Virus record (IMG/VR): IMGVR_UViG_3300032313_000664
Coordinates: 25,839 to 89,838 of that record
Reading direction: 5' to 3' (one strand)
Origin: a virus
Length of the DNA stretch: 64,000 bases
Part shown: piece after piece, positions 16,123-62,085 of the stretch
Position numbering within the stretch: position 1 is the first letter of the stretch
Layout: each line of letters opens with the position of its first letter
Made by a program: the position numbers and the translations under genes
The notes under the pieces: model-generated
The model's input: the letters and a program-made list of their open reading frames with translations, nothing else
Told to the model about the DNA's origin: nothing
Databases searched by the model: none

Positions 16123-16151
16123 TGGACTTGAGTAGACAATAATGGTAAAAT
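16123..16151 (+). promoter_or_regulatory. Promoter for leaderless head-operon mRNA
   Basis: TGGACT (16123-16128), 17 bases, then TGgTAAAAT with -10 TAAAAT (16146-16151). The next ATG (16160) lies 9 bases after the -10, at the predicted transcription start, and there is no ribosome site before it. A TTGACA at 16111-16116 is a weaker alternative -35 with a different -10. Confidence 0.55.
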
Positions 16152-16159
16152 AAAGTCCT

Positions 16160-16501
16160 ATGGATATCAATAATACTAAATACAAGGTTCTTGATGAAGA
16201 GAGCACCCTAGGCATATATGTCTGGGAGATGCCTGACGGCAGATGGATTGGAGACGACGATGGGAATTTTCTTTCAGTCACGTCAAAAAAAGGCAATAGA
16301 TCCAGAATCGATGCTTTGGCTAGAGAAGTTCGCACATTCGGTATATATGAAGGCGGGCCTAAATTTCTTTCTGCAAGAAGAAAAATTGATGACGAAGAAT
16401 TTGAATACCAAAAACAAAGACTTAACTGGGGATTAATTCCAGACCCTATGGATATTGGTAACTATAAAGATGAAATGAAAAAGATGGGTGGCATGAAATG
16501 A
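16160..16501 (+). CDS. Conserved small protein preceding portal
   Basis: The 113-residue protein has YVWEMPDGRWIGDDDGNFLSV, then RIDALAREVRTFG and a C-terminal NWGLIPDPMDIGNY. Proteins of this plan occur just before portal genes in some actinobacterial phages, with unknown function. The ATG has no ribosome site and lies at the predicted start of transcription, so it is probably leaderless. It overlaps the portal ATG by three bases (ATGA). It may be a head assembly cofactor. Confidence 0.6.
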   Translation: MDINNTKYKVLDEESTLGIYVWEMPDGRWIGDDDGNFLSVTSKKGNRSRIDALAREVRTFGIYEGGPKFLSARRKIDDEEFEYQKQRLNWGLIPDPMDIGNYKDEMKKMGGMK

Positions 16502-18069
16502 TTGAGGTTCAAGAAGAAGACGGAAATACAATTGATATATCTAACACAGCCGACTGGTTTTCTTTTAAAAAAGAGCAGCCAACAAGTGACCCATTTGCAA
16601 TAAGCGGAGATGACCTAAAAAAAGTAAGAGGCTTAGGAACAGCATTTAAAAGAAAAATTAACCGAGAGTTTTCAAAAGCTTTTACAGGAATTGAAGGCGT
16701 AGGCACACAACAAAATCTTCTTGCACAGGCTATTAGTGGCTATGCAATGTTTGACCTTATTGAGCCACCATACAACCAAGAATATCTATCGAAAATTTAT
16801 GAAGTGTCAACATATAACTATGCAGCAATTAATGCAAAGGTTGCAAACATTGTTGGGCTAGGATACGATTTTGTTGAAACAAAAAAGACAAATGATGCAT
16901 TTGATTCAATAACAGATGAGAAGCAATTAGAAAGAGCCCGCAAAAAGCTTAACAGGTTGCGCCAAGACCTACACGAATGGTTGGATACAACAAATGAAGA
17001 AGATACCTTTACTCAAACATTAATTAAGGTGTACACAGATTTAGAGGCAACAGGAAATGGCTATATTGAAATAGGCAGAACTACAGGCGGAAACATCGGA
17101 TACATTGGGCATATTCCTGCAAAGACAATGCGTGTACGTAGACTAAGAGATGGCTTTGTTCAATTGCTTTACGGCAAGGCAGTCTTCTTTAATAATTTCG
17201 GAGACACAGAAACAGAGAATCCAATTGCTGGACAAGAAGATCGACCAAATGAAATTATACATTTAAAGAAGTACACACCAATGAACAACTACTACGGCAT
17301 ACCAGATATTGTGGCTGCTCAGGTTGCTCTAACTGGCAATGAATTTTCTGGAAGATATAACCTAGATTACTTTGAAAATAAGGCGGTCCCAAGATATATT
17401 ATTACAGTAAAGGGAGCAAAGCTTTCACCAGAGTCAGAAAGAAAGCTGCTTGAATTTTTCCAGGTGGGGTTAAAGGGCAAAAACCATAGATCTCTATATG
17501 TCCCACTTCCATCAGATACCCCTGACTCAAAAGTTGAATTTAAGATGGAGCCAATTGAAGCTGGAAACCAAGAAGGCTCATTTGAGAAATATCGTAAATC
17601 AAATAGAGATGAAATTTTGCTAGCCCACCGTGTTCCAATTAATAAAATAGGAACACCAGAGGGAGTTAATTTGGCTGTTGCTCGTGACGCAGATAAGACA
17701 TTTAAAGAGCAAGTCTGTAGACCCGCCCAGATGATTCTGGAAAAGAAAATTAATAATATATTCGGCGAGAAGACAGACGCATTGCTTTTAAAGTTTAATG
17801 AATTAACATTGACTGACGAAGATACCCAGTCTAAAATTGACGAAAGATATTTAAGAATGCAGGTCATTACCCCTAATGAAGTTAGAATTAGAAAAGGCAT
17901 GATTCCAATTGATGGCGGAGATAAGGTCGTAGACCTTCAAGCCCAAGCAGCAGAAATTAGAGCCCAAGCTGGGAACACCAGACAAAGGTCTCAAGATCGC
18001 CAAGCAAATTCCCCAGATGTTTCTGGAGAAGGAAGAAATGCTAAAGGCGACGGCAGACAAGTTGACTAA
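16498..18069 (+). CDS. Portal protein
   Basis: The 523-residue product matches phage portal proteins: PPYNQEYLSKIYEVSTYNYAAINAKV near 90-115, IGHIPAKTMRVRR, GIPDIVAAQVALTGN, YNLDYFENKAVPRYII and a C-terminal LLAHRVPINKIG, as in the HK97/PBSX portal families. Twelve copies form the ring at the capsid vertex through which DNA passes. The last 60 residues are Gln/Arg-rich and probably disordered. It is followed by protease and capsid genes, the usual head order. Confidence 0.85.
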   Translation: MIEVQEEDGNTIDISNTADWFSFKKEQPTSDPFAISGDDLKKVRGLGTAFKRKINREFSKAFTGIEGVGTQQNLLAQAISGYAMFDLIEPPYNQEYLSKIYEVSTYNYAAINAKVANIVGLGYDFVETKKTNDAFDSITDEKQLERARKKLNRLRQDLHEWLDTTNEEDTFTQTLIKVYTDLEATGNGYIEIGRTTGGNIGYIGHIPAKTMRVRRLRDGFVQLLYGKAVFFNNFGDTETENPIAGQEDRPNEIIHLKKYTPMNNYYGIPDIVAAQVALTGNEFSGRYNLDYFENKAVPRYIITVKGAKLSPESERKLLEFFQVGLKGKNHRSLYVPLPSDTPDSKVEFKMEPIEAGNQEGSFEKYRKSNRDEILLAHRVPINKIGTPEGVNLAVARDADKTFKEQVCRPAQMILEKKINNIFGEKTDALLLKFNELTLTDEDTQSKIDERYLRMQVITPNEVRIRKGMIPIDGGDKVVDLQAQAAEIRAQAGNTRQRSQDRQANSPDVSGEGRNAKGDGRQVD

Positions 18070-18086
18070 CCCCACTCAACTGTTAT

Positions 18087-18115
18087 TTGCCTTTTTATCT
18101 ATAAGTCGCTAAAAT
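18087..18115 (+). promoter_or_regulatory. Promoter for leaderless protease mRNA
   Basis: TTGCCT (18087-18092), 17-base spacer, then TAAAAT (18110-18115). The ATG at 18123 lies 8 bases past the -10 end, at the predicted start of transcription. An almost identical promoter, TTGCCT with 17 bases and CTAAAATTA, precedes the major tail protein. Confidence 0.6.
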
Positions 18116-18122
18116 TAAGCAT

Positions 18123-19463
18123 ATGAATATTGAAAAGTCTTTGTGGTCCAGTCATGGCGACAACATCAGTCTATCGGTTCCCTTTACAAAGGTTAACCGT
18201 GAAAAAAGAACGGTGTCAGGATTCGCTACATTAGATAATGTTGATCAGACAGGCGACGTTGTCACAGCAGAAGCAAGCCTAAAAGCTTTTGAAGGCTTTA
18301 GAGGAAATCTTCGTGAGATGCATAACTCAACAGCAGTTGGCAAGGTTGTTTCATTTAAGCCAGAAACATACTACGATCCAAAATCAAAAGAATTTTATAA
18401 CGGTGTATATGTAGATGCATATATCTCAAAAGGCGCACAGGACACTTGGGAAAAAGTTTTAGACGGAACCCTATCTGGATTCTCAATCGGCGGTAAGATT
18501 AATGAGTCAGACAATGAAGTCAATAAGGCAAATGGCAAGACAGTAAGATTTATTAAGGATTACGATTTGATTGAATTGTCAATTGTAGATTCTCCAGCAA
18601 ATGAACTTTGCAATGTTCTGTCTATTCAAAAGGTAAACGGCCAATTGATATTTAAAGGAATTGCAACTGAAGTAGTAACAGAAAATATTTTTTATTGTGA
18701 AGAAAGCAATTCTGTTTTTATCTCAACAGAAAAAACATATGACTCTCCAGTATCTGGAAAGCCAGCACAACTAATTGGTTGGGTTGAGAGCTCAGATGTT
18801 AACAAGTCAAAAGAGATTGATAAGATTCTTGATGCATATAAGCATTCAAGATTTACGTTGCCTGATACACAAATAGCAAAACAGGCAAACGCAGAAGGAG
18901 GTAATGAAGTGTCAGAAAATACAGAAAACGTAGTTGTTGAAGATGCAGCTGTTGAAGCAGCACCAGAAGCAACCGTAGAAGAGACAACAGAAGTTGCAGC
19001 AGATGCAGCACCTGCAGTCGAAGATGCTCCTGCAGAAGATGCAGTAGCGGAAGACACAGCTGCCGAGACTCTGGAAAAAGTAGCCGACGTATCAGAAGAT
19101 AAGGTTGAAGAACCTGATTTTGCAAAGATGTTAGGCGACCTAAAGGGCTTTTTCTCAGAAACTCTAAATAAGGCATCAGAAGTTAATGCAGCACAAGTAA
19201 CAACAATCCAAGAGACTGTTGAAGCTTTCAGCAAGAGCGTAGACGCTAGAATTTCAGAGTTGGCAGAACAACACACAGTGCTATCAAGTGCTGTAAAAGA
19301 TATCAAGAGCACGATTGATGGTGTACAAAAGCGTGTCGATGCAGTAGAGTCCGAGACTGCAATTAAGAAGTCTTCTGATCTTGGCCGATCAGAGGAAGTA
19401 ACAATCAAGAAATCTAAATGGAACGGTTCTTTCCTCGGTTCCGTGAACGAAATATTTAACTAA
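18123..19463 (+). CDS. Prohead protease with C-terminal scaffold domain
   Basis: The 446-residue protein has an N-terminal protease domain (residues about 15-175) of the HK97 prohead protease (XkdF-like) type: REKRTVSGFATLDNVDQTGDVV, EMHNSTAVGKV with the likely catalytic His, GTLSGFSIGG with the likely Ser, and DYDLIELSIVDSPANELC. It cuts scaffold and capsid N-termini during head maturation. The C-terminal part from about residue 255 is Glu/Ala-rich and then coiled coil (ISELAEQHTVLSSAVKDIKS), as expected for scaffold. A strong internal ribosome site starts this part as a separate protein. The mRNA is probably leaderless. Confidence 0.8.
   Translation: MNIEKSLWSSHGDNISLSVPFTKVNREKRTVSGFATLDNVDQTGDVVTAEASLKAFEGFRGNLREMHNSTAVGKVVSFKPETYYDPKSKEFYNGVYVDAYISKGAQDTWEKVLDGTLSGFSIGGKINESDNEVNKANGKTVRFIKDYDLIELSIVDSPANELCNVLSIQKVNGQLIFKGIATEVVTENIFYCEESNSVFISTEKTYDSPVSGKPAQLIGWVESSDVNKSKEIDKILDAYKHSRFTLPDTQIAKQANAEGGNEVSENTENVVVEDAAVEAAPEATVEETTEVAADAAPAVEDAPAEDAVAEDTAAETLEKVADVSEDKVEEPDFAKMLGDLKGFFSETLNKASEVNAAQVTTIQETVEAFSKSVDARISELAEQHTVLSSAVKDIKSTIDGVQKRVDAVESETAIKKSSDLGRSEEVTIKKSKWNGSFLGSVNEIFN
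18896..18911 (+). promoter_or_regulatory. Internal ribosome site and GTG start within the protease gene
   Basis: AGGAGGT at 18896-18902 is followed, 7 bases after the last G, by an in-frame GTG at 18909-18911. A full-consensus ribosome site at ideal spacing, exactly where the protease domain gives way to the acidic scaffold part, is hard to attribute to chance. Confidence 0.65.
18909..19463 (+). CDS. Probable free scaffold protein from internal start
   Basis: Reading from the in-frame GTG gives a 184-residue protein starting VSENTENVVVEDAA. It is acidic, then forms a coiled coil (EVNAAQVTTIQETVEAFSKSV to VQKRVDAVESE) and ends in a basic tail, WNGSFLGSVNEIF. This is the composition of internal scaffolds. 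Phage lambda makes its scaffold Nu3 the same way, from within the protease gene C. I infer that both the fused and free forms are made. Confidence 0.6.
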   Translation: MSENTENVVVEDAAVEAAPEATVEETTEVAADAAPAVEDAPAEDAVAEDTAAETLEKVADVSEDKVEEPDFAKMLGDLKGFFSETLNKASEVNAAQVTTIQETVEAFSKSVDARISELAEQHTVLSSAVKDIKSTIDGVQKRVDAVESETAIKKSSDLGRSEEVTIKKSKWNGSFLGSVNEIFN

Positions 19464-25316: not shown

Positions 25317-28300
25317 ATGGCTGATGAAAATATTGTAACTAATATAGTTGCCAATGCTGATTTTTCAGGTCTTATTGCAGATGTCAATAAGGTCACAGCC
25401 TCACTATCTAAACTACAAGCTCAGTTAATTGCTTCAGACGCAAAGCTTGCAAATCAAGTTGCGGTAATGAACAGATCCTTCTCAGAAAATTTGAGAAGAA
25501 CTGGGCAGTTTTCTACACACTTTGTTACACTAACTTCAGATACTGAAAAGTTTGGTAAGAGTCTTGATGGCGGAAAGCTTAAGCTACGAGACTACTTTAG
25601 AACGTTTCAAGAACATACAAAAACTTCAGGCGGAATCGTTAGAGATCTTGCTAAGCAACAAGTAGCACTACAAAATGCCATCATACAACCCTTGGGTAAA
25701 AACGCCCAAGGGCTTATGCAGTTTAACGTACAGGTTCCACAAGGTCTAGATAATATAAAAAACAAAACAGCCATAGCAAGACAAGAGCTTCAGATATTAA
25801 ATAAGGTTGTTCAAGATGGCGGAGTTCAGCTTATTAACTGGGGTAAGAACACTCAGTGGGCAGGACGTCAGCTAACAGTAGGATTAACAGTACCACTAGC
25901 GGCATTTGGTAAAGCAGCAGCAGATGCATTTAGAATGGCAGACGCAGAGTTGGTAAGACTTACAAAGGTTTATGGCGGAGTAGCAGCAACATCCTCAGCA
26001 GAATTATCTAAAATAAGAACTGAAGTTTCAGCAACCGCTAAAGAAATTTCAAAAGCTTATGGAGTTTCATTTAAAGATACAATTACACTTGCAGCAGATA
26101 TAGCAGCAACAGGTAAACAAGGCGATGAGCTTTTGTCTTCAGTCAAAGAAACAAGCAGACTTGCAGTTCTTGGTGAAGTAGATAGACAAGAAGCCATGAA
26201 GGCCACACTGGCAATTCAAACAACATTTAAACAAAACACTGATCAACTTTCTGAGTCGATTAACTTCCTTAACTCAGTTGAAAACCAAACATCAACAACT
26301 CTTAATGACTTAGTAGAAGCAATTCCAAAAGCTGGTCCAGTTATTCAAGGATTAGGCGGAAGCGTACAAGACTTAGCGTTGTATTTAACTGCAATGAAGG
26401 AAGGTGGAATTAATGCTTCAGAAGGAGCCAACGCTCTTAAATCAGCACTAGCATCTTTAATTAATCCTACAAAAGTAGCAAAAGAAAAGTTTTTTGAAAT
26501 GGGAATTGATCTCGGTGGAATTGTAACAAAAAATGCTGGAAATTTAACAGGAACAATAATGGCTCTTCAGGCCGCACTAGATAGCCTAGACCCACTACAA
26601 AAGCAACAGGCAATTGAGCAGTTGTTTGGTAAGTTCCAGTTCTCTAGACTTAATGCTTTGTTTGCAAACTTAGGCAAGCAAGGAAGCCAGACTCTTCAGG
26701 TAATGGATTTAATGAAAGCAAGTTCTCAAGAGCTAGCCCAAGTTGCTGACCGAGAATTATCAATGGTAACAGAATCTGCTTCTGGAAAGTACAGAAGAGC
26801 AATAGAGGGATTAAAGGCAGACCTAGCTGGAATAGGAGAAGAGTTCCTTAAGGTACAAACATTCTTTATCAATGTTGTAGACGGAATTATTGATTTTACA
26901 ACCAAACTTCCAAAGCCTATTAAGCAGATCTTAACTTTTGCTGGTGGATTAACCGCAGTAATCGGTCCAGTTATTATGTTGACTGGTGTTCTCGCTAACT
27001 TCTTTGGCTACGTTATAAAAGGAGTTTCTCACTTTAAAGCCTTGTTTAAAGGTGGAGAAGGCTGGAAGATGCTTACTCCAGAAATTCTTGCTGCACAAAA
27101 AGCAGGAAGCCTTGTTGAAAAAACATTTTACAGTGATGCACAAGCGGCAACAGTATTAAAAACAGCAATTGAAGGCTTAGTAGCAGAGTTTACTGTATTG
27201 CAATCTAAGGCTCAGTCAGGGGCAATATCAGTTGCTCCAGCATTAAATAATTTTGTAAGCGGGGTTACTGGAAGAGTAGTTAATCCAAACCATCCAATGC
27301 TAAGCCCAACAGACACAAGATCAATGTCTCACATGAATCCAGTTGGTGGGATGACGGCAGATCAAAAGACTGGCCAAACAATATTTGGAGTAGTACCTGG
27401 AGCACCAAGAGTTAATCAGACAATAGGTAATAACCCACAGATTTATGCAAATGCAGATTTACCAGAAGTACAGGGTCTTACAAGAATTGGAAAAGCTTCA
27501 ACTGGAGTAGTTGCAGCCGAAGCTGCTAAGTGGCATGCAATGACAGGCGCATTAGCAATGCAATCAGAAACAGAAATAAAAGCATTGAAAACAGAAGTTT
27601 CCAGAACAGGATTAATTACACACGAGCTTTCTGCTTCGTATCAAGCTTTGTTGCCAGAAATGACAAAGCTAACACAACGAGCAGCCCTTGAGTCAGCAGA
27701 AATTGTTGCTCAATTACAAGCAAGTAAAATAACAATAGATCAAGCAAGAGCAAAAATTATTGCATTGAATGCACAAATTGAAGCTGCTATGGGAGCTGCT
27801 GCTACAGATATTGCAGGACAGCAAGGAAGATCTATTGCCTTAACGTCTGTTCCTTTGCTAAGTCAACCAGTGGTAGACAGAGCTGGTAAATCAAATATGA
27901 AAGAGCTTGCTCGTCCAGGAAGAACAAGAGGTCTTCTTAATAAAATTGCAGGAGGCCTCGGAGTTAAAACTTTTGGCGCACCGTATAGCATTGAAACAAC
28001 AATGCCAAAGAAGTTTCATACGGGAGGCACAGTCAGTGGTCCAGGAACTGGAACATCTGATTCAATTCCTGCAATGGTTTCTAATGGAGAGTTTATTGTT
28101 AAAGCGGGATCAGTAAATGCAGAAACCCTTCCAATTCTTCAAGCAATAAATGATAACCCAGACAATACAAGACCATTCCTATCTGCCTTTATGACACATC
28201 AAGGAACTGAAATAAATCAAGGTCTTGAAGGTAAAGCAAAAGGAAAAGTGGTACCAACTGGAATATCGATTGCAAATGATATGCAGAACCTTCATTCTCG

Positions 28301-31300
28301 TGGCCTGCACCCAATGGGCGTTTTTTATGATCAAGGAACAAGATTAGGTTACGATAAGAATGAATTAAAAATTGCACTTAACGGTGCACACGAAGAACTG
28401 CAAAGAACTTTTTCTGCAAAAGGATCTGCTACAATTAATAAGCTATATTACGACAAAGTGGCTTCATCTACTATACTTAAATACTTAAAAGATGTTAAAA
28501 GATTAAGTCCAGCAATAGGCAGACAAGTTTCTATGGCAGAAGAACTTATGTTCTTAGGTCATCAAAGACTATCTTCAGGTAAAGGTTTTGAAAAAGGAAC
28601 AATGCGTCAAGTTGGATTTGATGGCGTCAAGCTACCCAGAGAAATTATCGGCACTGGAAGTGGATTCTCTAAAGATTCAAATCAAAGACATTTTAATTTA
28701 ATACAAGACCTATACGACGAAGAACCTTCAAATAAGTATACAGGTAAGTTAGGTAAGGGCAATACTATATCTCAAGTATTTAAAACTCAAAAAGGTCATA
28801 TGGGTGTGGCACGACCAATTTCAAAAATGAATTTCTTAATGAGCATGGTAAAAAACAAACTAAGTCGTGCACCACTTGCGCCAGACCCAAGATCAATTGC
28901 TTTGAATCAAAAATGGAGAAGAGGATACAAAGACGGCGGATTAGTTGGATACAAGAACGGCGGTATGGTTGGAGGAATGGATATCCCACGCTTTCATGAT
29001 GGCGGCTTTGTTTCTGGATTTCAATCTCAAGCTAGCAAGGGGTTTGTTGGACAAGGAATGCTAAAGCGCCCTGAAGGCGGCGGAATGGGCATCGGTGCTC
29101 AAATGGGAATGATGATGGGCGGATCAATGCTAGGACAATCTATAGGCGGCAACGTTGGCACTGGAATAACAATGGCTGCAAATATTCTCCCATGGCTTCC
29201 CCTACAAAAAATTATGCCATTAATTGGCAAGCTAATGACAAACCTAAGAACACTTTCTGGAATAGCAAATATTGCTGGTAAAGCAATGGGTCTATTATTT
29301 AGAGTTGGTCCAGTTGGTGCAGTTGTTACTGCAGTTGGACTTGCTGTATTTGCTTATAAGAAGTGGCGCAAAGAAGTAGAAGAAACTCAAAGAGAACATG
29401 TAATGCTAAACGGCATTACTGAAAAGGGTGCTAAAGAAGCAGGAATTAGCTACAAGAATGTAGCAAACTCAATTAAGGATGTAAGAGAGCAGTTTAAGCT
29501 TCAACAACAACAAGGTATATCCGCATACGAATCAATGACTGGTTCTGGAGTACAAGGGCTTACATTAACAATTGCACAACTAAAAGAATTAAAGAAAACT
29601 GCAAAAGATACTATGCCAGAGTTAGTCGGAACTTTTAATAGCATAGATACAAGCAAGGTAAATGATCTTGCTGCAAACCTAAAGGCACAATTTGTATCTG
29701 CAGGTATGTCTGCACAAGATGCAACAAATAAAATTTATGCAATCATAGAAGCATCAAATAAGGCTGGCGCAGGACTTGGTGCTATAACTAGCACAGGATT
29801 TACTGCAATAACAGACAAGGGAAGCGCTGCTTCTGCTATCGTTAAAAATTTAATTGATAGTCTTGCAGATATTGAAAATGTTGATCCAAAAGCATTTGCA
29901 TCAAATATTGATACCGTTATATCAAGCCTAGATGCAGCAACTGCTGCACTTGTAGGAACAAAAGATGCACAAGGAAATACAATTGATGAATCTATGGCAA
30001 TGACAATGCAATGGGAAAAGCTTGTCAAACTTGGTGCCGACTATACTCAATTAGGAGAAAAAGCTCTTGCTAACCTAAAGAAAGAAAGACCTGAACTTGC
30101 TGCAATATTAAAGAGCACAGATACTGTTGCAGGAATGTATGCCAAGTGGAGAGTACTTTTGGCTGGAGTTAATATTGATCTTAAGAATATAACATCTCAA
30201 CAAGCAATGGGAATTGCAGCTTATCAGCAAGCACTTTCTATGGCAGCATCTGCTTCAACATCAAATGAAAACACAAAAGGCGCATTGGGCACAGCTAATA
30301 AAGCAACAAAAGATTTAACAGATAGCATTAAAAAAGGCGAGAATGCAATAAAGAAGTATTCAAATACTGAAGCTGGATTAAGCAAGGCCAGAATAAAAGC
30401 ATATCAGGATGAAATTAAAGCTATCCGTGATCGTGCTGATGCAAAGAAGAAAGCCCTAAGAGACACTGTAGAAACTGAAAACACTGAGCTTGAGCTACAA
30501 AAGCTTAAGTTAGAAGCCCAAGCCGCACTAGCACGTGGAGACAGAGATGCTTATGAAGCTGCAAACATTGCAATTGCTCAGCTTACGAAAGAAACTCAGT
30601 TAAAGAAGGCTGAAGATAAAATTGATGCTAATGCTAAAAAAGAAGAAGCAAAAATTCAAGCCATTCTTGATGCAGATCAAGCAAAGAAAGATGCAGCAGC
30701 AGATGCAGTTACTAAGGCACAAAATACAGGCGCTTCAGCGACACAAACACTTGGAGAAATAAATAGCATTAAGTCGTTGCTTGCCCAGCTGGCAATAGAT
30801 CAAATTGAAAACGATAAGCTTAAAGACCCAACTAAAAAAGCAGATGGTCAAAAAGCTCTAGACGGAAGACTTCAAACTATAATTGGATCACTTGAAAAAG
30901 CTTCAGATGCTGTTCAAAAAGCATTCCCAGAATATGTTGATGCAAAAACAAATAAAGGAATTCCTACAAAAATTTATGGAATGCCTGGAGGTGAAGGTGC
31001 TCGAACTGGAGCTGGTGGAGCATTTGATAAGCTTGTTGCAGAAGTTGCAACAGGCGCAGAAAAGAATTTTAATAAATTATCTTCAGAAATTAGAGGCGGG
31101 GCATCACTTGGAGATGTTGTTAAAGCAATGGGCGGGACAGTAAGCAAGAGTAAAAAAATTGAGCAAGCAGATGTTACTGCTGCAATAAAAGCACAGCCTG
31201 GAGGTAGCAGTTCAGGATACCTTAAAGATCAAACAAAGGATGACGGTTCTCTTGAAGAGGGAGTGAGAAACGCTATCATACAAAAGTATGGGTTTAAAGA

Positions 31301-31736
31301 TGGAGATTCATTTGAATTCCAGGGCAAGACATATAATGTAAAGAAGAAGGCCTGGTACAACGGTAAAGGCAACGAAGCTGTTCTTGTAAAGAAGTGGGGC
31401 GGCGGTGCCGTAGTTGCTGGACAAACCTACGGTGTAAATGATAGAATTAACTCATTGGGAGTACAGCAAGAAGGCTTTATGCCGTTTACTCCAAAGGTAA
31501 GCGGAATAATTTATCCAAATGTTGATACTATGCCAAAGTATAATATCCATAGCGGAGAAGTAACTGGAATGCGTGGCGGAGTAAACAGTTCTTACAATAA
31601 CAATTCATACTCAATTAACATTGCGCTTAATGGAACCAACGTGACAGCAGACGATGTAATGAGAAGATTTAAGACAGAGATGGCTTTGGTTCATGCAAAA
31701 GAAGGAAGATCTAGATCAGTTGGGGGACAAGTTTAA
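25317..31736 (+). CDS. Tape measure protein
   Basis: The 2139-residue protein is helical for most of its length and ends with SINIALNGTNVTADDVMRRFKTEMAL, as many tape measures do. Its N-terminal 500 residues contain the TP901 tail core plan: WGKNTQWAGRQLTVGLTVPLAAFG near 180-200, then EGANALKSALASLINPT. Hydrophobic segments lie at about 532-570 and 1260-1350. Gly-rich motifs of the form GGTVSGPGTGTSDSIPAMVSNGEFIVKAG occur near 905-935, with GGLVGYKNGGMVGG near 1205-1220. A long coiled coil spans about 1660-1800. At about 0.15 nm per residue the tail would be near 320 nm. The ATG at 25317 follows a three-codon minicistron. Confidence 0.9.
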   Translation: MADENIVTNIVANADFSGLIADVNKVTASLSKLQAQLIASDAKLANQVAVMNRSFSENLRRTGQFSTHFVTLTSDTEKFGKSLDGGKLKLRDYFRTFQEHTKTSGGIVRDLAKQQVALQNAIIQPLGKNAQGLMQFNVQVPQGLDNIKNKTAIARQELQILNKVVQDGGVQLINWGKNTQWAGRQLTVGLTVPLAAFGKAAADAFRMADAELVRLTKVYGGVAATSSAELSKIRTEVSATAKEISKAYGVSFKDTITLAADIAATGKQGDELLSSVKETSRLAVLGEVDRQEAMKATLAIQTTFKQNTDQLSESINFLNSVENQTSTTLNDLVEAIPKAGPVIQGLGGSVQDLALYLTAMKEGGINASEGANALKSALASLINPTKVAKEKFFEMGIDLGGIVTKNAGNLTGTIMALQAALDSLDPLQKQQAIEQLFGKFQFSRLNALFANLGKQGSQTLQVMDLMKASSQELAQVADRELSMVTESASGKYRRAIEGLKADLAGIGEEFLKVQTFFINVVDGIIDFTTKLPKPIKQILTFAGGLTAVIGPVIMLTGVLANFFGYVIKGVSHFKALFKGGEGWKMLTPEILAAQKAGSLVEKTFYSDAQAATVLKTAIEGLVAEFTVLQSKAQSGAISVAPALNNFVSGVTGRVVNPNHPMLSPTDTRSMSHMNPVGGMTADQKTGQTIFGVVPGAPRVNQTIGNNPQIYANADLPEVQGLTRIGKASTGVVAAEAAKWHAMTGALAMQSETEIKALKTEVSRTGLITHELSASYQALLPEMTKLTQRAALESAEIVAQLQASKITIDQARAKIIALNAQIEAAMGAAATDIAGQQGRSIALTSVPLLSQPVVDRAGKSNMKELARPGRTRGLLNKIAGGLGVKTFGAPYSIETTMPKKFHTGGTVSGPGTGTSDSIPAMVSNGEFIVKAGSVNAETLPILQAINDNPDNTRPFLSAFMTHQGTEINQGLEGKAKGKVVPTGISIANDMQNLHSRGLHPMGVFYDQGTRLGYDKNELKIALNGAHEELQRTFSAKGSATINKLYYDKVASSTILKYLKDVKRLSPAIGRQVSMAEELMFLGHQRLSSGKGFEKGTMRQVGFDGVKLPREIIGTGSGFSKDSNQRHFNLIQDLYDEEPSNKYTGKLGKGNTISQVFKTQKGHMGVARPISKMNFLMSMVKNKLSRAPLAPDPRSIALNQKWRRGYKDGGLVGYKNGGMVGGMDIPRFHDGGFVSGFQSQASKGFVGQGMLKRPEGGGMGIGAQMGMMMGGSMLGQSIGGNVGTGITMAANILPWLPLQKIMPLIGKLMTNLRTLSGIANIAGKAMGLLFRVGPVGAVVTAVGLAVFAYKKWRKEVEETQREHVMLNGITEKGAKEAGISYKNVANSIKDVREQFKLQQQQGISAYESMTGSGVQGLTLTIAQLKELKKTAKDTMPELVGTFNSIDTSKVNDLAANLKAQFVSAGMSAQDATNKIYAIIEASNKAGAGLGAITSTGFTAITDKGSAASAIVKNLIDSLADIENVDPKAFASNIDTVISSLDAATAALVGTKDAQGNTIDESMAMTMQWEKLVKLGADYTQLGEKALANLKKERPELAAILKSTDTVAGMYAKWRVLLAGVNIDLKNITSQQAMGIAAYQQALSMAASASTSNENTKGALGTANKATKDLTDSIKKGENAIKKYSNTEAGLSKARIKAYQDEIKAIRDRADAKKKALRDTVETENTELELQKLKLEAQAALARGDRDAYEAANIAIAQLTKETQLKKAEDKIDANAKKEEAKIQAILDADQAKKDAAADAVTKAQNTGASATQTLGEINSIKSLLAQLAIDQIENDKLKDPTKKADGQKALDGRLQTIIGSLEKASDAVQKAFPEYVDAKTNKGIPTKIYGMPGGEGARTGAGGAFDKLVAEVATGAEKNFNKLSSEIRGGASLGDVVKAMGGTVSKSKKIEQADVTAAIKAQPGGSSSGYLKDQTKDDGSLEEGVRNAIIQKYGFKDGDSFEFQGKTYNVKKKAWYNGKGNEAVLVKKWGGGAVVAGQTYGVNDRINSLGVQQEGFMPFTPKVSGIIYPNVDTMPKYNIHSGEVTGMRGGVNSSYNNNSYSINIALNGTNVTADDVMRRFKTEMALVHAKEGRSRSVGGQV

Positions 31737-40223: not shown

Positions 40224-43091
40224 ATGGGTATTCTTTCTAAAGTTGCTAATACTGGTTCTTCAACAGACTGGAGAACTACAAAAAAGGTTTGGGTCAAGGT
40301 TTCAAGTACACTTTGGAAATCAGCAACTGCACTATACGGGAAAACAGTAAATGGCTGGGTAAAGATGTGGCCAGGAAATGCCCCTTCAGTAAGACCATCA
40401 GATCCAATTAATATAAGATTGGGCGGATATAATGGGACTGTAGCATCTAGCGTAGAGTTATTTTGTAGCACAAATGTTGGAACAGCGGGAACATTTTTAA
40501 AATTGTGGGGAAATGATGGATCATTTGATGGAGTAACCCCTATTACTATTTCCAATAGAAGAATGTTATGTTCAGACAATATTGACGGACAGGTAGAAAG
40601 ATTTAGCTTAAGTGGAAATGACACTATAGATTTTGCAACAACGACTCAAGCAACCAGAGATCTTGCTGAAGGATACTATATATTTTATCAACTAAAAGCT
40701 GAAAACGTAGATGGAATTTTAGACGCATATTCTCCAGCAGTTAAAGTAATTAAAAGGAAACCAGCTTTAGTAAGCTATGCTATTCTTTCTGAATCAGGAG
40801 GACTTTTGCAAGGCGATAGTGGATTTTCTCCTTTTGACGTTGTATCATTAAGCGCTCAAGTACGTTACGGTTGGTGGATAAAGCCAGGAGGCTACTTAGG
40901 AGGAACTCCAGTTTTAAAATGGTGGAAAAATTCAACGGGATCAACAGGTGGAACCCTATTAAAAGAAATTAATATTGAAACAGGATACAACTATGTTGCG
41001 GGGTCATACGATTCGTCCTATACATACAATACAAATACTTCAAACGTTTTAACTATATCTAGCAGCTATAACGTAGGAAGTACACCACTTCAAGTAGGAG
41101 AGTACCTAGTTGCTGAACTTTATTTAGAAAACTCTTATACAGCACATTATGCTTCTCCAGCAAGCTACTGGGCTGCTACTGCCGTTGCAACAGTTCCCCC
41201 TCCAACATTTCTTACAGCAACAACAGATAGAGACGACGGTGTTGATTTAACATTTGGCGGATCATCTGCTGCAGTAAGTTATGATATTTTTTGGAATACA
41301 GGAGATGTTGCTCCTACAGATACAGTAACTCCAGATTTTTCTGGAAAATCTTCTCCATTCTTAGATACCACAATGGGTTTTGGCGTAACTAGATGGTACT
41401 GGGTTAGAGCAGTTAATTCAAGCGGCCTTAAATCTACTTGGTATCCTGCCGTAAACGGAGTAATTGGAACAAGGGTTAATGAGATATTTTATAACGTTAA
41501 TTGGCTTGGAAATGGAGGGTCTTCATTTAATCAAGGTTCTCCATGGTCGTTTAAGAAAAACGGTACCGTCACAGTCCCTTCTGCAACTAGAATAGGATAC
41601 ACATTTCTTTTTTGGGCAAATACCGCATCAGGAGCATATACATACAGCACATCTAACGTCGGTGGAACTTGGTCTCCTCCTGCTCAAAACATTACTATGT
41701 ATGCAAGGTGGCAGGAAAATATTTGTACAATACCCGATGTAATTGGCATGACAGAAATTAATGCAACAAATGCTGTTAACACTGCTGGATTTTTATACGA
41801 GTATACTGATTATATTGACACTACTAATGCTTCAATAGTTGGAACAGTTGCTGCAATAGATCCAGCAGTAGGGTCACAACCAGGCTGCGGTACAAACATA
41901 ACTTTAACTTTATATAGGCTTCCACCTGCTACTGCCCCAAGCGGACTATCTGTAACACTCACTCCAACAGGAACACAGATGGCTGGAACGGAGCTCACGG
42001 CATCAGTTTCTACAACTGCTGGTAGTACGCCAATTACATATACGATTCAGATATTTAAAAGAACGGGTGCAGACCCAACAAATGCAAACACTCAAGTTGC
42101 AAGTGGAACAACATCTGCTACACACACTATTACAGCAAGTGAGGCTGCAGGAACACCAGACCGATTTATTGCATACGCAACTGCAAGCAACTCAGCTGGA
42201 ACAGTAACTGGTTATTCTAGTGTTGTTACATCTACTCCTGCTGTAGCTACAGTTGTAGCGCCATCTGGGGGAACTGCTACAGTAAGCCCAACAACAGGAA
42301 CTGCGGGAACAACAACATATACAGGATCTACTTCAGGATGGGCGGGATCAACAGCAACGTACACCTACTCATGGCAATATTTTAGCTCTAGTTCTTTTTC
42401 TTATGTAGAATATACATCGGGAACTTCATTTTCTCCGCCAGCAAATATTAATTCGCTATACCCAAACTATGGCTGGAGGCTTAGAGTTGCTGCAACTAAT
42501 ACAGCAGGAACTGCTTATGCAGATGCAAGTGTAACAATAAGTTCGCCAGCAGCAGCTATAGCTCCAAGCGGTGGTGAAGTTACCCTTACGCCAAGCGGAA
42601 CCCAACAAGCTGGAACACAGATATGTGCAAATGTAACTGCTATGTCAGGAACCGCTACAATAAGCTATATAACTAATATTCGCAAAGCAACGGGTAGCAG
42701 TCCAACGGGAACAGCAACTTCCGTTGCTTCTGGATCTGGAACAGGTAATAGCGTATGTTGTCATACAATTACTGCAAGTGAAGCAGCAGGAACTCCAGAT
42801 CAATTTAAAGCATATACGGTTGGAAGTAACTCTGCTGGGGACCATACTATTGGATCTAATACAGTTATATCCACCCCAGCCGTAGTGGTATTTCATGCGC
42901 CATATCACGAGCCAACTGTATTTCATGCGCCATATCACGAGCCAGCTGTATTTCATGCGCCATATCATGCGCCTACCCCAAGTTGTGGCTCTCCTTACTC
43001 GTTTAATTACCCAGACGCTAATTGTGGAGGCGATGGCGGATACGCTGGTATTTACAATAGTTGCGGAGTATTTGTGGGATGTAATGACTAG
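40224..43091 (+). CDS. Tail protein with InlB-like, PASTA-like and His/Pro-repeat modules
   Basis: The 955-residue protein is modular. Residues 1-330 are a tail beta domain and Ig-like parts. About 425-497 match an InlB/Flg_new beta-grasp repeat (IGYTFLFWANTASG...ITMYARWQEN). About 501-568 match a PASTA domain: CTIPDVIGMTEINATNAVNTAGF, then GTVAAIDPAVGSQPGCGTNITL, with Cys501 and Cys555 able to pair. Two Ig-like repeats with HTITASEAAGTPD follow, then three decapeptides of the form FHAPYHEPTV and a Cys-rich end (ANCGG..SCGVFVGC). PASTA domains bind peptidoglycan in Gram-positive hosts, so this suggests a cell-wall-binding tail part. Confidence 0.65.
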   Translation: MGILSKVANTGSSTDWRTTKKVWVKVSSTLWKSATALYGKTVNGWVKMWPGNAPSVRPSDPINIRLGGYNGTVASSVELFCSTNVGTAGTFLKLWGNDGSFDGVTPITISNRRMLCSDNIDGQVERFSLSGNDTIDFATTTQATRDLAEGYYIFYQLKAENVDGILDAYSPAVKVIKRKPALVSYAILSESGGLLQGDSGFSPFDVVSLSAQVRYGWWIKPGGYLGGTPVLKWWKNSTGSTGGTLLKEINIETGYNYVAGSYDSSYTYNTNTSNVLTISSSYNVGSTPLQVGEYLVAELYLENSYTAHYASPASYWAATAVATVPPPTFLTATTDRDDGVDLTFGGSSAAVSYDIFWNTGDVAPTDTVTPDFSGKSSPFLDTTMGFGVTRWYWVRAVNSSGLKSTWYPAVNGVIGTRVNEIFYNVNWLGNGGSSFNQGSPWSFKKNGTVTVPSATRIGYTFLFWANTASGAYTYSTSNVGGTWSPPAQNITMYARWQENICTIPDVIGMTEINATNAVNTAGFLYEYTDYIDTTNASIVGTVAAIDPAVGSQPGCGTNITLTLYRLPPATAPSGLSVTLTPTGTQMAGTELTASVSTTAGSTPITYTIQIFKRTGADPTNANTQVASGTTSATHTITASEAAGTPDRFIAYATASNSAGTVTGYSSVVTSTPAVATVVAPSGGTATVSPTTGTAGTTTYTGSTSGWAGSTATYTYSWQYFSSSSFSYVEYTSGTSFSPPANINSLYPNYGWRLRVAATNTAGTAYADASVTISSPAAAIAPSGGEVTLTPSGTQQAGTQICANVTAMSGTATISYITNIRKATGSSPTGTATSVASGSGTGNSVCCHTITASEAAGTPDQFKAYTVGSNSAGDHTIGSNTVISTPAVVVFHAPYHEPTVFHAPYHEPAVFHAPYHAPTPSCGSPYSFNYPDANCGGDGGYAGIYNSCGVFVGCND
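42891..42980 (+). repeat. Three tandem 30-base repeats coding for His/Pro decapeptides
   Basis: Units at 42891-42920, 42921-42950 and 42951-42980. The first two differ at one base, and the third diverges in its second half. They encode FHAPYHEP(T/A)V twice and FHAPYHAPTP once. The near-identity at DNA level points to recent duplication or replication slippage. Confidence 0.85.
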
Positions 43092-44084: not shown

Positions 44085-44885
44085 ATGAGCAACGATTTAA
44101 AGTGGATGCTATCATCCGATCAGCAATTCCCGTATCAAGATGACAAGATGATTGCCTTATGGTTTAAGGTCATGAAATGGTTTAAGCCAGATGTAGTTGA
44201 TTACTTGGGAGATACTGATGACCAAGCATGTTATAGCAAATACAATGAAGGATTGTCTTCAGAATTTCTTGCCTTGCATAAGACAGATAGCAAAGATCTT
44301 ATTGTTCCAATGATGCGTCATGAAGCAAAGGGGGCAAGAGATTTTTATGCAAAGACTAGAGATATGTTACCTGACGCTCAGCTTTTTTCTGCTTTAGGAA
44401 ACCACGACATTAGAATTTTTAACTACATGGATGCCAAGCTTCCAGATTATTTAAAAGAAGTGACACCAGAAACTCTTTGGAACCTAGACTCTTTGGGCTA
44501 TGAATATATCTACTATGACTCTTTACCTAAACGTCGATTTGGCGATGTGCACGTACATCACGGAATTTCTATATCAGCAACTGGATCAGTCAGAAAAGAC
44601 ATGGAGGATTTACAGGTATCTTTAATTAGAGGACACTCACACAGAATTGCTTCACATATGGTAACATATGAATTAAGAAATAATGGCGAAGGAGAGACCC
44701 TCCGTGGATACGAGATTGGTCACATGTGCGATGAAAAGGGGCCAGGTATGAAGTATACACAGCATCACGACTGGCAAAAAGGTTTTGCTATTGCACACAT
44801 TGTAAATGATTATCCTCATATTCAAATGATTCATGTTTCCCCAGACTACTCTTGCGTGGTGGACGGAAAGGTATTTACTTTATAA
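44085..44885 (+). CDS. Metallophosphoesterase
   Basis: The 266-residue protein carries the calcineurin-like metal motifs in order: SDQQ near residue 11, DYLGDTDDQ near 44, ALGNHDIR near 105, HVHHG near 155 and GHSH near 185. They bind two metal ions and cut phosphodiester or phosphomonoester bonds. The first motif reads SSDQQF, where SDxH is usual, so it is slightly atypical. It is the first gene of the replication block, after a terminator, with a TAAGGTAG site. The substrate is not known. Confidence 0.75.
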   Translation: MSNDLKWMLSSDQQFPYQDDKMIALWFKVMKWFKPDVVDYLGDTDDQACYSKYNEGLSSEFLALHKTDSKDLIVPMMRHEAKGARDFYAKTRDMLPDAQLFSALGNHDIRIFNYMDAKLPDYLKEVTPETLWNLDSLGYEYIYYDSLPKRRFGDVHVHHGISISATGSVRKDMEDLQVSLIRGHSHRIASHMVTYELRNNGEGETLRGYEIGHMCDEKGPGMKYTQHHDWQKGFAIAHIVNDYPHIQMIHVSPDYSCVVDGKVFTL

Positions 44886-49303: not shown

Positions 49304-52300
49304 ATGAAATTTACACACTTACATGTGCATTCCTACTATTCTTTAATGGATGGACTTAACTCTCCCCTCGAACTTGTTCAGGCTGCGAAGGCAGCGGGAC
49401 AAACAGCAATAGCAATAACAGATCACGGAACCTTGTCTTCACATAGAGAAATGCAGATTGCCTGTAAAGAAGAGGGCATAAAGCCAATCCTTGGAGTTGA
49501 AGCCTACATATCTCCAACAGACAGATTTGATAAATCTTCAAAGACAGATAAATCTATTCAGGCATATAACCACATTATCCTTTTAGCAAAAAATAAAAAA
49601 GGATTAGAAAACATTAATATTCTCCAAGAGATTGCTTGGAACGAAGGCTTTTATCATAAGCCTAGAATTGATAGAGAGGTTCTTAAGGAATATGCAGAAG
49701 GTGTTATTGTTCTTAGCGGATGCCTTAATGGGCTTATTAGTAAGTGCATCGAAAAGGGCGAATTTTCAGAAGCAAAGATTATACTCAAAGATTTTAAGCA
49801 AACTTTTCAAGAAGATTTTTATGTGGAGGTTCAGTCTCATAATCCGAAAGAGATAAATTCTAAATTACTGGAGCTTGCTGACGAACTTAATATTAAGGCG
49901 GTGGCGACTGGAGATGCTCACTTTGCTAAAGAAGAAGATAGAGTATTAGAAGAGGCAATGCTTATATTATCAACATCCCCTAAGATGGATAAGGATGCTG
50001 ACTTTGAAATGTCTAGACAGATTAAAGATATTAATGAAAGATTAAACTATCTATACCCAGACCGTAGAATATCATTTCAGGATTACAATTTATTTATCCA
50101 ATCACGATCTGAAATTGAAGCTGACTTTAATAAGGCTGGAATTACTCGTACAGATATATATGATAATACTATTGAAATTACTAATAAAATTAAGGAATAC
50201 GACTTTAACAGTGGTTTAGACTTGCTCCCAGTACCCAAGACAGATGCCGACGAGAAACTGGCTCAGATGGCCTCTGAAGGCCTTAAACGCCTAGGTCTGA
50301 CAGAGTCTCAAGTCTACATTGATAGGCTTGATGAAGAGTTATCTGTAATTAAAGATAAGTCATTTGCATCCTATTTCTTAGTTGTTGCCGATATGATTAA
50401 CTGGGCAAAGAGTAACGATATCAAGGTTGGCCCAGGCCGAGGTTCGGCAGCAGGCTCACTGGTTTGCTATGCCCTTGGTATTACAGATGTAGATCCAATC
50501 AAGTATGATTTGCTATTCTTCCGATTCATTAACCCAGAACGTAATGACTTTCCAGATATTGATACAGACTTTGAAGATCGCCGTCGTAAAGAGGTTAAAG
50601 ATTATTTAAAGAAAAAGTTTAAGCACGTTGCATCTATTTCTACATATACTTATTTTAAAGATAAGGGTGTAATTAGAGATGCTGCTCGTGTGTTTATGGT
50701 CCCGCTTTCAGATGTTAATCGTGCCATGAAATCTATTGATACGTTTGAAGATTTTATTGACTCCCCAAATACTAAAGAGTTTAGAACTAAGTACCCAGAG
50801 GTTGTTTGGCTTGCAGACAGACTGCGTGGAAGAATTAGATCCGTAGGTGTTCACGCAGCAGGTGTTGTTGTAGCAAAGGATGATCTTAGAAAATATGCAC
50901 CAGTAGAATCAAGAGCTGATGCAAGTGATTTAGTTTCAGGAAGAATTCCAGTCGTCGCATACGATATGGATACGGTTGCAGATATAGGTCTTATTAAGCT
51001 AGATGCACTAGGTCTTAAGACTTTATCTGTGATCTCTGACACCCTTGCTTCAATTAAAAAGCGTTCAGGTAAAGATATAAATCTATCTAAGTTAACACTT
51101 GATGACCCAGATGTTTACAAGGTTTTGAGCGAAGGCTATACAAAGGGTGTATTCCAAGCAGAAGCAACCCCTTATACCAATTTGCTAATTAAAATGGGTG
51201 TAGATAAGTTTGAAGATCTTGCTGCATCAAACGCATTGGTTCGTCCAGGAGCTATGAATACGGTAGGTGCTTCTTATATTAAGCGTAAGCATGGTGATGA
51301 AGCAGTACAGTTTATTCATCCAATCATGAAGCCATTTACAGAAAATACATACGGAGTTATTATTTATCAAGAACAGGTCATGCAGGCTTGTGTGCACCTC
51401 GGAGGAATGACTTGGTCAGAAGCTGACAAAGTTCGTAAAATTATTGGAAAGAAGAAAGATGCAAAAGAGTTCGACCAGTTCAAGGATCGCTTTATTGATG
51501 GCGCTTCAAAACACATTTCTAAGAAGCAAGCCGAAACGCTATGGCATACTTTCGAGGCTCATGCTGGGTATTCTTTTAACCGTTCCCATGCTGTTGCTTA
51601 CTCTATGCTCTCTTACTATACTGCTTGGCTCAAGACTTATTATCCTTTGGAATTTATGTTCTCGATTCTTAAAAACGAAAATGACAAAGACGCCAGAACA
51701 GAATATTTAATTGAAGCAAAAAGATTAAATCTGAGCATTAAGCTTCCACACATTAATGAATCAGACGTGTTCTTTTCATTAAAGGGAGACTCAATTAGAT
51801 TCGGCTTGGGTGAAGTAAAGTTTATTTCAGATAGTATTGCAAATAAAATTATTGATCAGAGACCATTTAAATCTTATTCTGAATTTATTGAAAAGGCTTC
51901 TAAGAAGGGCAGCGGAATCAATAGCCGTGCAATATCTGCACTGAATGCAATTGGTGCTGCGGCATTTGAAGACAATCCAAGAAGCGGAAATGAAAAGGAT
52001 AGCTACTACGAGTATCTAGGCATACCTACATTTAACCTAGAAGGAATTCCACCACGTATTAAATCACAGGCAAGACCGATTGAAGAGTTTGAAGACCTAG
52101 GGTCATTTGTTATGTTTGGAATGGTTAAATCAATTAAGCGTGGTAACGGTTGGGCACGTATTGAATTGGTAGATGAGACTGGGTCAATTGGACTATTCCA
52201 TACTGAGCAAACACAAATAGAGACTGGGCAGATGTACTTTATCCTTGTTGGAGATAACAGAATTGCTCGCTATGTAAAGGTAAGTGATATTGATCCTACG

Positions 52301-52573
52301 GGCTCTAATTCATTTGTAGATTATCTTTATAAAAAGCGTTATGATCTTGACGAAGACGAGTATGTTGTAGTAGACTTTACTCCGTATGTAACAAAAGCTG
52401 GGAAGACAATGAGCCACATAGTTCTTTCCAATTCAGAGAAAGAATTAACTAGAGTAATTGCTTTCCCAACAATGTATAAGATGTCCCTAGCTAAAATGCG
52501 TGAGGGAATGAAGTGTAAGGTTGTTCTATCTACTTTAGATGATGGAACTTTAATGGTAAAGGAAATAAAATGA
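49304..52573 (+). CDS. dnaE: DNA polymerase III alpha-like (DnaE) polymerase
   Basis: The 1089-residue protein has an N-terminal PHP domain (residues about 3-200) with THLHVHSYYSLMDG, ITDHGTLSSHREM and HFAKEEDRVLEEAM. The polymerase core starts near 330 and has the signature PDIDTDF at 417-423 (Asp418, Asp420 and Asp422) and the third catalytic Asp in KLDALGLKTL near 566. A helix-hairpin-helix and an OB-like domain (SIKRGNGWARIELVDETG) end it. It is shorter than bacterial DnaE (about 1150-1200) but complete. It would replicate the phage genome with the helicase, primase and SSB next to it. Confidence 0.9.
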   Translation: MKFTHLHVHSYYSLMDGLNSPLELVQAAKAAGQTAIAITDHGTLSSHREMQIACKEEGIKPILGVEAYISPTDRFDKSSKTDKSIQAYNHIILLAKNKKGLENINILQEIAWNEGFYHKPRIDREVLKEYAEGVIVLSGCLNGLISKCIEKGEFSEAKIILKDFKQTFQEDFYVEVQSHNPKEINSKLLELADELNIKAVATGDAHFAKEEDRVLEEAMLILSTSPKMDKDADFEMSRQIKDINERLNYLYPDRRISFQDYNLFIQSRSEIEADFNKAGITRTDIYDNTIEITNKIKEYDFNSGLDLLPVPKTDADEKLAQMASEGLKRLGLTESQVYIDRLDEELSVIKDKSFASYFLVVADMINWAKSNDIKVGPGRGSAAGSLVCYALGITDVDPIKYDLLFFRFINPERNDFPDIDTDFEDRRRKEVKDYLKKKFKHVASISTYTYFKDKGVIRDAARVFMVPLSDVNRAMKSIDTFEDFIDSPNTKEFRTKYPEVVWLADRLRGRIRSVGVHAAGVVVAKDDLRKYAPVESRADASDLVSGRIPVVAYDMDTVADIGLIKLDALGLKTLSVISDTLASIKKRSGKDINLSKLTLDDPDVYKVLSEGYTKGVFQAEATPYTNLLIKMGVDKFEDLAASNALVRPGAMNTVGASYIKRKHGDEAVQFIHPIMKPFTENTYGVIIYQEQVMQACVHLGGMTWSEADKVRKIIGKKKDAKEFDQFKDRFIDGASKHISKKQAETLWHTFEAHAGYSFNRSHAVAYSMLSYYTAWLKTYYPLEFMFSILKNENDKDARTEYLIEAKRLNLSIKLPHINESDVFFSLKGDSIRFGLGEVKFISDSIANKIIDQRPFKSYSEFIEKASKKGSGINSRAISALNAIGAAAFEDNPRSGNEKDSYYEYLGIPTFNLEGIPPRIKSQARPIEEFEDLGSFVMFGMVKSIKRGNGWARIELVDETGSIGLFHTEQTQIETGQMYFILVGDNRIARYVKVSDIDPTGSNSFVDYLYKKRYDLDEDEYVVVDFTPYVTKAGKTMSHIVLSNSEKELTRVIAFPTMYKMSLAKMREGMKCKVVLSTLDDGTLMVKEIK

Positions 52574-60971: not shown

Positions 60972-61184
60972 ATGAGCGTTTTAAAAAAGATTAAAGATTT
61001 TCTTGGAGTTAAAGAAGATACTTATAACGTAAAGATGGATGAAGTTTTAGCACCAGCAAAGAAAGCACCAGCAAAGAAGGTTGCCAAGAAGGCTCCCGCA
61101 AAGAAAGTAACTAAGAAAGCACCAGCCAAGAAGGTTGCTAAAAAAGCGCCAACTAAGAAGTCTGCAATTAAGAAGCCAATGTAA
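60972..61184 (+). CDS. Histone-H1-like Lys/Ala/Pro-rich protein
   Basis: The 70-residue protein has an N-terminal helix (SVLKKIKDFLGVKEDTYNV) and then repeats of the form APAKK, VAKK and VTKKAPAKK. These repeats match the H1-like tails of bacterial HU/Hc1 and AlgP-type proteins, which bind DNA non-specifically. It has an AAGGAG site and its own promoter. It overlaps the next gene by one base. It may compact phage DNA or coat host DNA. Confidence 0.65.
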   Translation: MSVLKKIKDFLGVKEDTYNVKMDEVLAPAKKAPAKKVAKKAPAKKVTKKAPAKKVAKKAPTKKSAIKKPM

Positions 61185-61591
61185 TGTACGAATACTACGT
61201 TAAAAAAGTAGAAGCTGTAGTCGACGGGGACACAATTGATGTTCTCATTGACTTAGGTTTTGATATATTGTTTGCATCAAGAGTAAGACTGGCTGGAATT
61301 GATACTCCAGAATCCAGAACAAAGGACCTAGCAGAAAAGAAGCTTGGACTTGAAGCAAAGGAATACCTTAAGTCTAAATTAAAAGACGCCAAGGACGTAA
61401 GAATCAAAACAGAAAAGATGGACTCATCTGAAAAGTATGGAAGAATCCTAGGATGGATTTTTGTTGACGATCAAAAAGTTTCGATTAACGAGCAGATGAT
61501 TACAGATGGACATGCGTGGGGATACCTAGGAGATACCAAAGTTAAAGACTTCCAGGCTTTAGCAAAGGCAAGAGCAAAGTCTGGTAAATAA
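61184..61591 (+). CDS. Thermonuclease-like (SNase) protein
   Basis: The 135-residue protein has VEAVVDGDTIDVLIDLG, then RVRLAGIDTPESRTKD and KYGRILGWIFVD, the three-part signature of staphylococcal nuclease-like enzymes (Arg of RLAGIDTPE, Asp of VDGDT, second Arg of YGRILG). No signal peptide is seen, so it should act inside the cell, on DNA or RNA. It starts on the last base of the H1-like gene, so both may act on host DNA. Confidence 0.8.
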   Translation: MYEYYVKKVEAVVDGDTIDVLIDLGFDILFASRVRLAGIDTPESRTKDLAEKKLGLEAKEYLKSKLKDAKDVRIKTEKMDSSEKYGRILGWIFVDDQKVSINEQMITDGHAWGYLGDTKVKDFQALAKARAKSGK

Positions 61592-61665: not shown

Positions 61666-62085
61666 ATGGTAAATACACTCATGGGATCTATCTTCACAGA
61701 TCCTTTTTTTATTGGCTTTAATCGTGAAATGGAAAGAATGGCACATGTCCATCAGGCTGCAACACGCCAGACATATCCACCATATGATGTTTTAAAGCTA
61801 GACGAAGATACATATCAGGTATCAATTGCAGTAGCAGGATTCACAAAAGATGATATTGATGTTTCAGTAGACAACGGAACACTTATTATTAAGGGTGAAA
61901 TCACAGAGGTTACAGACGGCGAATATCTACATAAAGGTATTGCTGCACGTAAATTCACAAGAACATTTGGGCTTGGCGAATATATGGAGGTAACTGGAGC
62001 TTCAATCGAAGACGGAATGTTAAACATTAATGTAGACAGAATCATTCCAGAAGAAAAGAAGCCAAAGGTCATTAAGATCAAATAG
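61666..62085 (+). CDS. Small heat-shock protein (Hsp20)
   Basis: The 139-residue protein has a short N-terminal arm and an alpha-crystallin domain (about 40-139): PPYDVLKLDEDTYQVSIAVAGFTKDDIDVSVDNGTLIIKGEI, FTRTFGLGEYMEVTGASIEDGMLNINVDRIIPEE and the terminal IKIK, like the IXI motif. It would hold unfolding proteins in the host during infection. Similar genes occur in cyanophages and other aquatic phages. It has its own promoter. Confidence 0.85.
   Translation: MVNTLMGSIFTDPFFIGFNREMERMAHVHQAATRQTYPPYDVLKLDEDTYQVSIAVAGFTKDDIDVSVDNGTLIIKGEITEVTDGEYLHKGIAARKFTRTFGLGEYMEVTGASIEDGMLNINVDRIIPEEKKPKVIKIK

Follow-up and report, generated by a model that had tools for sequence, protein, structure and literature searches.

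The window, a stretch of 64,000 nucleotides, belongs to a viral record (G000) of 89,838 bases. Its tail module includes the tape measure gene (25317-31736) and tail matches to phrog_10359 and phrog_9983. The last large open reading frame (ORF) of this module codes for a 955-aa protein, for which the label tail protein used in the original prediction is fair. From its amino to its carboxyl terminus the protein carries strand repeats of the VKVSSTLWKSA type, a PASTA domain that passes the Pfam cut-off marginally (23.3 vs 23.2 bits), Ig-like repeats, a Pro-rich linker and a Cys-rich end, termed knob below (Table 1). Portal proteins are 52-86% identical among the viruses carrying this knob, and the one encoded in the window is 58% identical over its full length to those of Stanwilliamsviridae phages of Streptomyces. 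Phages Yaboi and BillNye of that family also share with it the order of the ribonucleotide reductase, portal, tape measure and minor tail genes. By these two traits the source virus, an uncultured phage, is a Stanwilliamsviridae-like siphovirus. The interval between the ribonucleotide reductase and portal genes differs, with ~3 kb in Yaboi against ~34 kb of appendage genes in the source virus. Note that this block (G000:8744-42300, i.e., window 1-16400 and the sequence upstream) contains Gly-rich, collagen-like, LamG-like, glycosyltransferase and methyltransferase genes.

Table 1. Features of the window relevant to the 955-aa tail-region protein.
Feature	Position	Strand	Basis or remark
Portal gene	16498..18069	+	Used to relate carriers
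955-aa tail-region protein with linker and knob	40224..43091	+	ORF; tail-module position; synteny with L036/L037 and Streptomyces phage Yaboi
PASTA domain, residues 502-563	41727..41912	+	Pfam PF03793, E 6e-5
Ig-like repeats, conserved in syntenic relatives	41931..42878	+	58-65% identity to L036/L037/L038, residues up to 893
Linker unit 1, FHAPYHEPTV	42891..42920	+	Sequence; 29/30 identical to unit 2
Linker unit 2, FHAPYHEPAV	42921..42950	+	Sequence
Linker unit 3, diverged, FHAPYHAPTP	42951..42980	+	Exact 22-mer common to the L054 YHAP array
C-terminal four-Cys knob, CGSPYSFNYPDANCGGDGGYAGIYNSCGVFVGCND	42984..43088	+	53% identity to paralogue G000:15503-15712, E 2.5e-6
Phosphoesterase-like gene	44085..44885	+	Marks synteny; follows the tail protein gene in L036/L037/L038

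The 30-base repeat predicted within this ORF is real. TRF reports a period of 30 with 2.7 copies, 98% matches and a score of 153. The best match of the ORF to itself at a lag of 30 has 29 of 30 identical bases against a maximum of 21 in codon-shuffled ORFs (n=300), which is far beyond chance expectation. The array had been described as three copies of FHAPYHEP(T/A)V. This holds for units 1 and 2 but not for unit 3; the array consists of two near-exact copies and a diverged one, because the last unit reads FHAPYHAPTP and is identical to the others at only 23-24 of its 30 bases. The Cys-rich end predicted after the repeats is also present, with four Cys among the last 35 residues.

The knob has the consensus CSGYYYxYxEPxCGGYASIYNxCGxFLGCND, and the family profile scores the window copy at E 2e-21. 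The search of the virus's own record identified a second such module at the carboxyl terminus of a 240-aa protein, encoded outside the window in the appendage gene cluster, whose two PASTA domains (69.6 bits) are followed by a YYAP/YHAP stalk (VAPYYAPYYAPPYYEPYYAPPVYHAPPVYHAP...). The core common to both knob copies is C-x11-13-C, then GG and YAxxYNxCGxFxGC(N/D)D. The knob is furthermore the carboxyl terminus of proteins with PASTA, Ig or fn3 domains in 12 other viral contigs. Ten true members and one chance match came from DNA-pattern scans of IMG/VR, while L022 and L049 joined the family through the profile and second pattern scans. These 12 contigs represent fewer independent lineages because there are close pairs among them. 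Several candidates were discarded: the matches in L007, L045-L048 and L050-L053 lie in a frame that is wrong or does not code, and no knob is present in L039-L044, which come from cellular genomes. Queries with the exact window repeat or with linker plus knob gave candidates of which none was confirmed by tblastn; the DNA-pattern scans worked better. The contig L022 of knob carrier G008 has a gene at 7535-8308 that looks by eye like a tail sheath gene, and the knob may therefore also occur in a contractile-tailed phage.

No knob was found in any of the cellular genome contigs searched or in any INPHARED record of a cultured phage; the only matches in the latter, to zinc domains of primases and further genes without relation to it, were due to chance. 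Likewise, tblastn against INPHARED detected no relative of knob or stalk, which also sets the source virus apart from phages of the Yaboi/BillNye type. The PDB holds no relative of the knob by sequence or by fold: its AlphaFold model, only moderately confident (pLDDT 72, pTM 0.37) and showing a small beta knob, matches no solved fold. PASTA domains (PF03793) are found in the 955-aa protein and in its small paralogues as in other PASTA proteins, with the difference that the viral proteins are neither kinases nor PBPs and use PASTA as the proximal part of an appendage.

One knob type is carried by many linkers, namely PTPAPTPVA, VTPAVTP, YSNPPPYDN, PPPPVD, poly-PT, YYAP/YHAP and FHAPYHEP. Conversely, the HAPYH linker was identified in two further phages (L054/L057 and L056) by scanning with [FY]HAPYH[AED]P, so that relatives with the HAPYH motif do exist. 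Their Cys-rich ends, CQCAPCGGVSYDCCNCFCDFGQVFC in L054/L057 and CTSFDAAIGCC... in L056, are unrelated to the knob; L055 was rejected as its HAPYH is a chance occurrence in a 23-aa frame. At the locus of the window protein, before the same phosphoesterase gene, the homologues L036 and L038 (identical to each other) end in a Thr run and other Cys beads, and the homologue L037 has neither linker nor knob. In G000, G001, G003, G004, G006, G017 and G018 a small PASTA-linker-knob gene precedes the portal gene by ~19-27 kb. The portals of the six other phages are 52-86% identical to that of the source virus, and their linkers and knobs differ. The structural genes neighbouring the G000 knob gene on its upstream side share 69-75% identity with their G016/G018 counterparts, and again the knob differs. 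Judging from these gene comparisons, the tip is exchanged with its proximal part kept both at the small PASTA locus and at the syntenic locus of the 955-aa protein. Within the collections searched, stalks and knobs are exchanged as modules, linkers vary in length, and the module is restricted to viruses.

The knob gene is followed by a gene coding for a 130-aa protein in 11 of the 12 other carriers and at the paralogue of the source virus; in the eight carriers in which the distance was measured, it starts 15-48 bases past the knob gene. Its product is 59-81% identical in the carriers, with the exceptions of G015 (32%) and G008, which lacks it, and is absent from all records with other knobs. 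By sequence comparison, the downstream gene co-varies with the tip and the two are linked. Since the knob copy of the window has no adjacent partner gene, the partner would act there in trans. The 130-aa protein has no match in Pfam or PHROGs, and its low-confidence model (pLDDT 61) has no fold match at E<=0.001.

The most probable explanation is that the HAPYH repeat is one interchangeable Pro-rich stalk that projects an exchangeable four-Cys tip, probably a host adhesin, with a linked partner. The body of the tail protein would anchor the structure, and a presumably extended Pro-rich stalk would hold the knob off the tail. The knob would be the conserved, exchanged and likely interacting tip, for which host adhesion is the most economical role if it is located in the virion as we infer. 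It appears to spread together with the 130-aa partner, which may fold, seat or cap it or bind beside it. The stalk would grow and shrink by repeat slippage and be swapped independently of the knob. The source virus has this module twice, in the 955-aa tail protein and in the 240-aa PASTA protein. Several points weigh against this interpretation: independent lineages are few (~5-8), G008 has the knob without the partner, the window copy lies apart from any partner gene, and the knob model is only moderately confident and has no solved counterpart.

Modular receptor-binding proteins with linked chaperones are found in phages T4 (gp37/gp38), Mu (S/U) and lambda (Stf/Tfa), in which the proximal part is kept and the C-terminal tip exchanged. 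Receptor-binding proteins of Klebsiella phages follow the same scheme, with swappable C-terminal specificity modules (PMC8262889). The module described here resembles these systems also in having a small gene that directly follows the tip gene and is linked to it. It differs in the tip itself, which is a Cys knob of ~31-35 aa borne by a Pro-rich stalk and neither a trimeric beta fibre nor a depolymerase, and in a partner that has no detectable similarity to Pfam or PHROG families. Literature searches yielded no description of a stalk-knob-partner module: the system is undescribed, while the theme of swappable phage tips is already known. A compact exchangeable adhesin-like module composed of stalk, knob and partner is thus missing from Pfam, PHROGs and the records of cultured phages. 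Its carriers are uncultured phages, and the cultured phages most closely related to them have Streptomyces hosts.

The Y/H-A-P stalk could in addition be a glycosylation track, an extensin-like glycoprotein decorated at Tyr, Thr or hydroxyproline by the GlcNAc transferase (PF11397) that the phage encodes beside it. This possibility complements the preferred reading of a stalk projecting a tip and is less likely than not. Plant extensin-like glycoproteins have Tyr/His/Pro repeats. The phage stalk is like them in being a repetitive, possibly glycosylated Pro/Tyr/His stalk, and differs in being viral, without Ser-Pro(n) motif and with no shown homology. PF11397 genes were found beside the linker gene, and only where the linker is of the Y/H-A-P or poly-Thr type (G000, G017, G018 and G012/G014). 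In the first three it follows the Y/H-A-P gene together with two mutually related genes (222 and 229 aa); in G012/G014 a more distant PF11397 gene (26%) comes after the poly-Thr tail gene. None was found in carriers of PTP, YSNPP, VTP or PPP linkers, including G003, which has the closest portal (86%). Counted by lineage, the transferase accompanies 4/4 stalks of the first group and 0/5 of the second (one-sided Fisher ~0.008, calculated by hand and before phylogenetic correction); G016 was excluded from the count as its contig ends just past the array. The association, of 4 against 5 lineages, is suggestive and not proven, having been recognized only post hoc and among related carriers. The pattern in G000 therefore has the partner tracking the knob and the transferase tracking the stalk type.

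Relatives of the PF11397 gene are rare, being detectable in 3 of 50,697 cultured phage records. Other enzymes fit stalk modification: an epimerase/GDP-mannose-dehydratase-like gene and a sulfotransferase gene lie downstream of the knob gene in G001, of PTP type, and prolyl-hydroxylase-like 2OG oxygenases adjoin it in G002, G003, G008 and G015. Precedents are Dictyostelium Gnt1, which modifies a hydroxyproline of Skp1 (PMC3515798), and the glycosylated C-termini of mycobacteriophage capsid and tail-tube proteins, as cited in PMC12619734. Against glycosylation stand the near absence of Ser/Thr from Y/H-A-P linkers, the lack of a PF13640 match in G000, and an enzyme that could instead modify other appendage proteins. 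Prolyl hydroxylase was rejected as a necessary companion, PF13640 being absent also from G012, G014 and G018. Note that G015 (L088), a viral contig of 16 kb, matches 2OG-Fe(II) oxygenases at eight places, some of them near the knob gene. G000 has three related genes of ~220-235 aa (L058:17157-17822, 17818-18507 and 3796-4497), two of which form a block with the GlcNAc transferase gene. The two tested have no Pfam match, and homologues of the trio are found in G001, G003, G004, G006, G009, G017 and G018.

A broader but doubtful proposal is an undescribed class of appendages that combine exchangeable Pro-rich stalks having their own modifying enzymes with disulfide knobs having cognate partners. 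A Gnt1-like GlcNAc transferase would go with Tyr/His-Ala-Pro and poly-Thr stalks, and sugar/sulfate enzymes with PTP stalks. The product would be an adhesin of lollipop form, glycosylated and extensin-like, in uncultured phages probably infecting actinobacteria. If the glycosyltransferase link were true, stalk chemistry and tip specificity of the virion would evolve as separate cassettes.

Alternatively, the repeat could be a functionally neutral low-complexity product of replication slippage in a tolerant inter-domain linker. The predicted recent or unstable copy number is plausible in view of the identity of units 1 and 2, codon usage and length variation. GCG, which accounts for 4.9% of the Ala codons of the source virus, is used by every HAP of the window repeat and for 19/23 Ala codons of the stretch counted in L054. 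Linkers before near-identical knobs range from 23 to 41 aa. Between two contigs of 98% overall identity, the stalk differs by precisely one unit of 12 bases (CCTACTCCAGCA); this may be an assembly error since the reading frame of the gene concerned is broken in one of them, G009. Against instability, the long YHAP/HAPYH array of L054/L057 is identical in two assemblies. The longest exact word shared with the window repeat has 22 bases in L054 and 8 in the virus's own paralogue, which was rejected as the source of the repeat; the sequences fit the acquisition of one seed unit from a related phage, followed by its amplification. Near-identical units, the rare codon throughout HAP, freely variable linker length and the linker-free homologue L037 are all compatible with neutrality. 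It is nevertheless unlikely: all linker classes before the knob are Pro-rich despite their differing composition, and the Y/H-A-P type recurs in several phages accompanied by the glycosyltransferase.

The even number of Cys in the knob suggests disulfides. Zinc bound by the four Cys is an improbable substitute, although they are invariant and virions are assembled in a reducing cytoplasm. The spacing (~C-x11-13-C-x8-12-C-x5-C) lacks the CxxC pairs of zinc ribbons, and other beads in knob proteins have two Cys (CPPGYTWYPNFGEC), fitting a disulfide.

The original prediction that the paired His could chelate a metal as in HxH tips is not supported. Published iron sites of phage fibres are HxH pairs (PMC11705849); such fibre or spike sites (T4 gp37, alterophage R22Y) are similar to the window array in that a tail protein bears regularly spaced His pairs close to its distal end. 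By its sequence the window linker is a Pro-rich linker, in contrast to the trimeric beta fibre with octahedrally coordinated iron of that class; it and the four related Y/H linkers contain no HxH, the His spacing in the linkers checked being i,i+4. The motif precedes the terminal knob and does not form the tip. His interchanges with Tyr inside related arrays and is not conserved across the family, the same knob standing on His-free linkers (YSNPPPYDN, PTPAP, VTPAV, PPPPVD). Despite the regular H-A-P-Y-H pitch in the window and the 21 His of the 103-aa L054 linker, dense enough that it could bind transition metals adventitiously, it is very improbable that the His stiffen or cross-link the tail tip as a metal-binding array; His-rich arrays may bind metal incidentally.

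Further small Cys beads on Pro-rich linkers (e.g., CPPGYTWYPNFGECIE, CTSADAPNPNMPLCNYGNIGTC, CPPPGDTSGSFSEPCSFDPTRCC) are found in L005, L016, L018, L020 and L022 and appear to be common to several viruses. The collagen-like tail fibre encoded at window 10849-13248, which matches phrog_677, ends in a domain of ~105 aa whose ligand pattern resembles that of cupredoxins (GHPFWF...YYICQFHASMNG). A domain like it is present in the Mtd_N tail-fibre protein (L058:13628-14992), also matching phrog_677, whose gene is just upstream of the small PASTA-knob gene. Elsewhere in the window, genes for an Hsp20-like small heat-shock protein (61666-62085), a thermonuclease-like protein (61184-61591) and a C-family DNA polymerase III alpha subunit (49304-52573) were recognized by eye.
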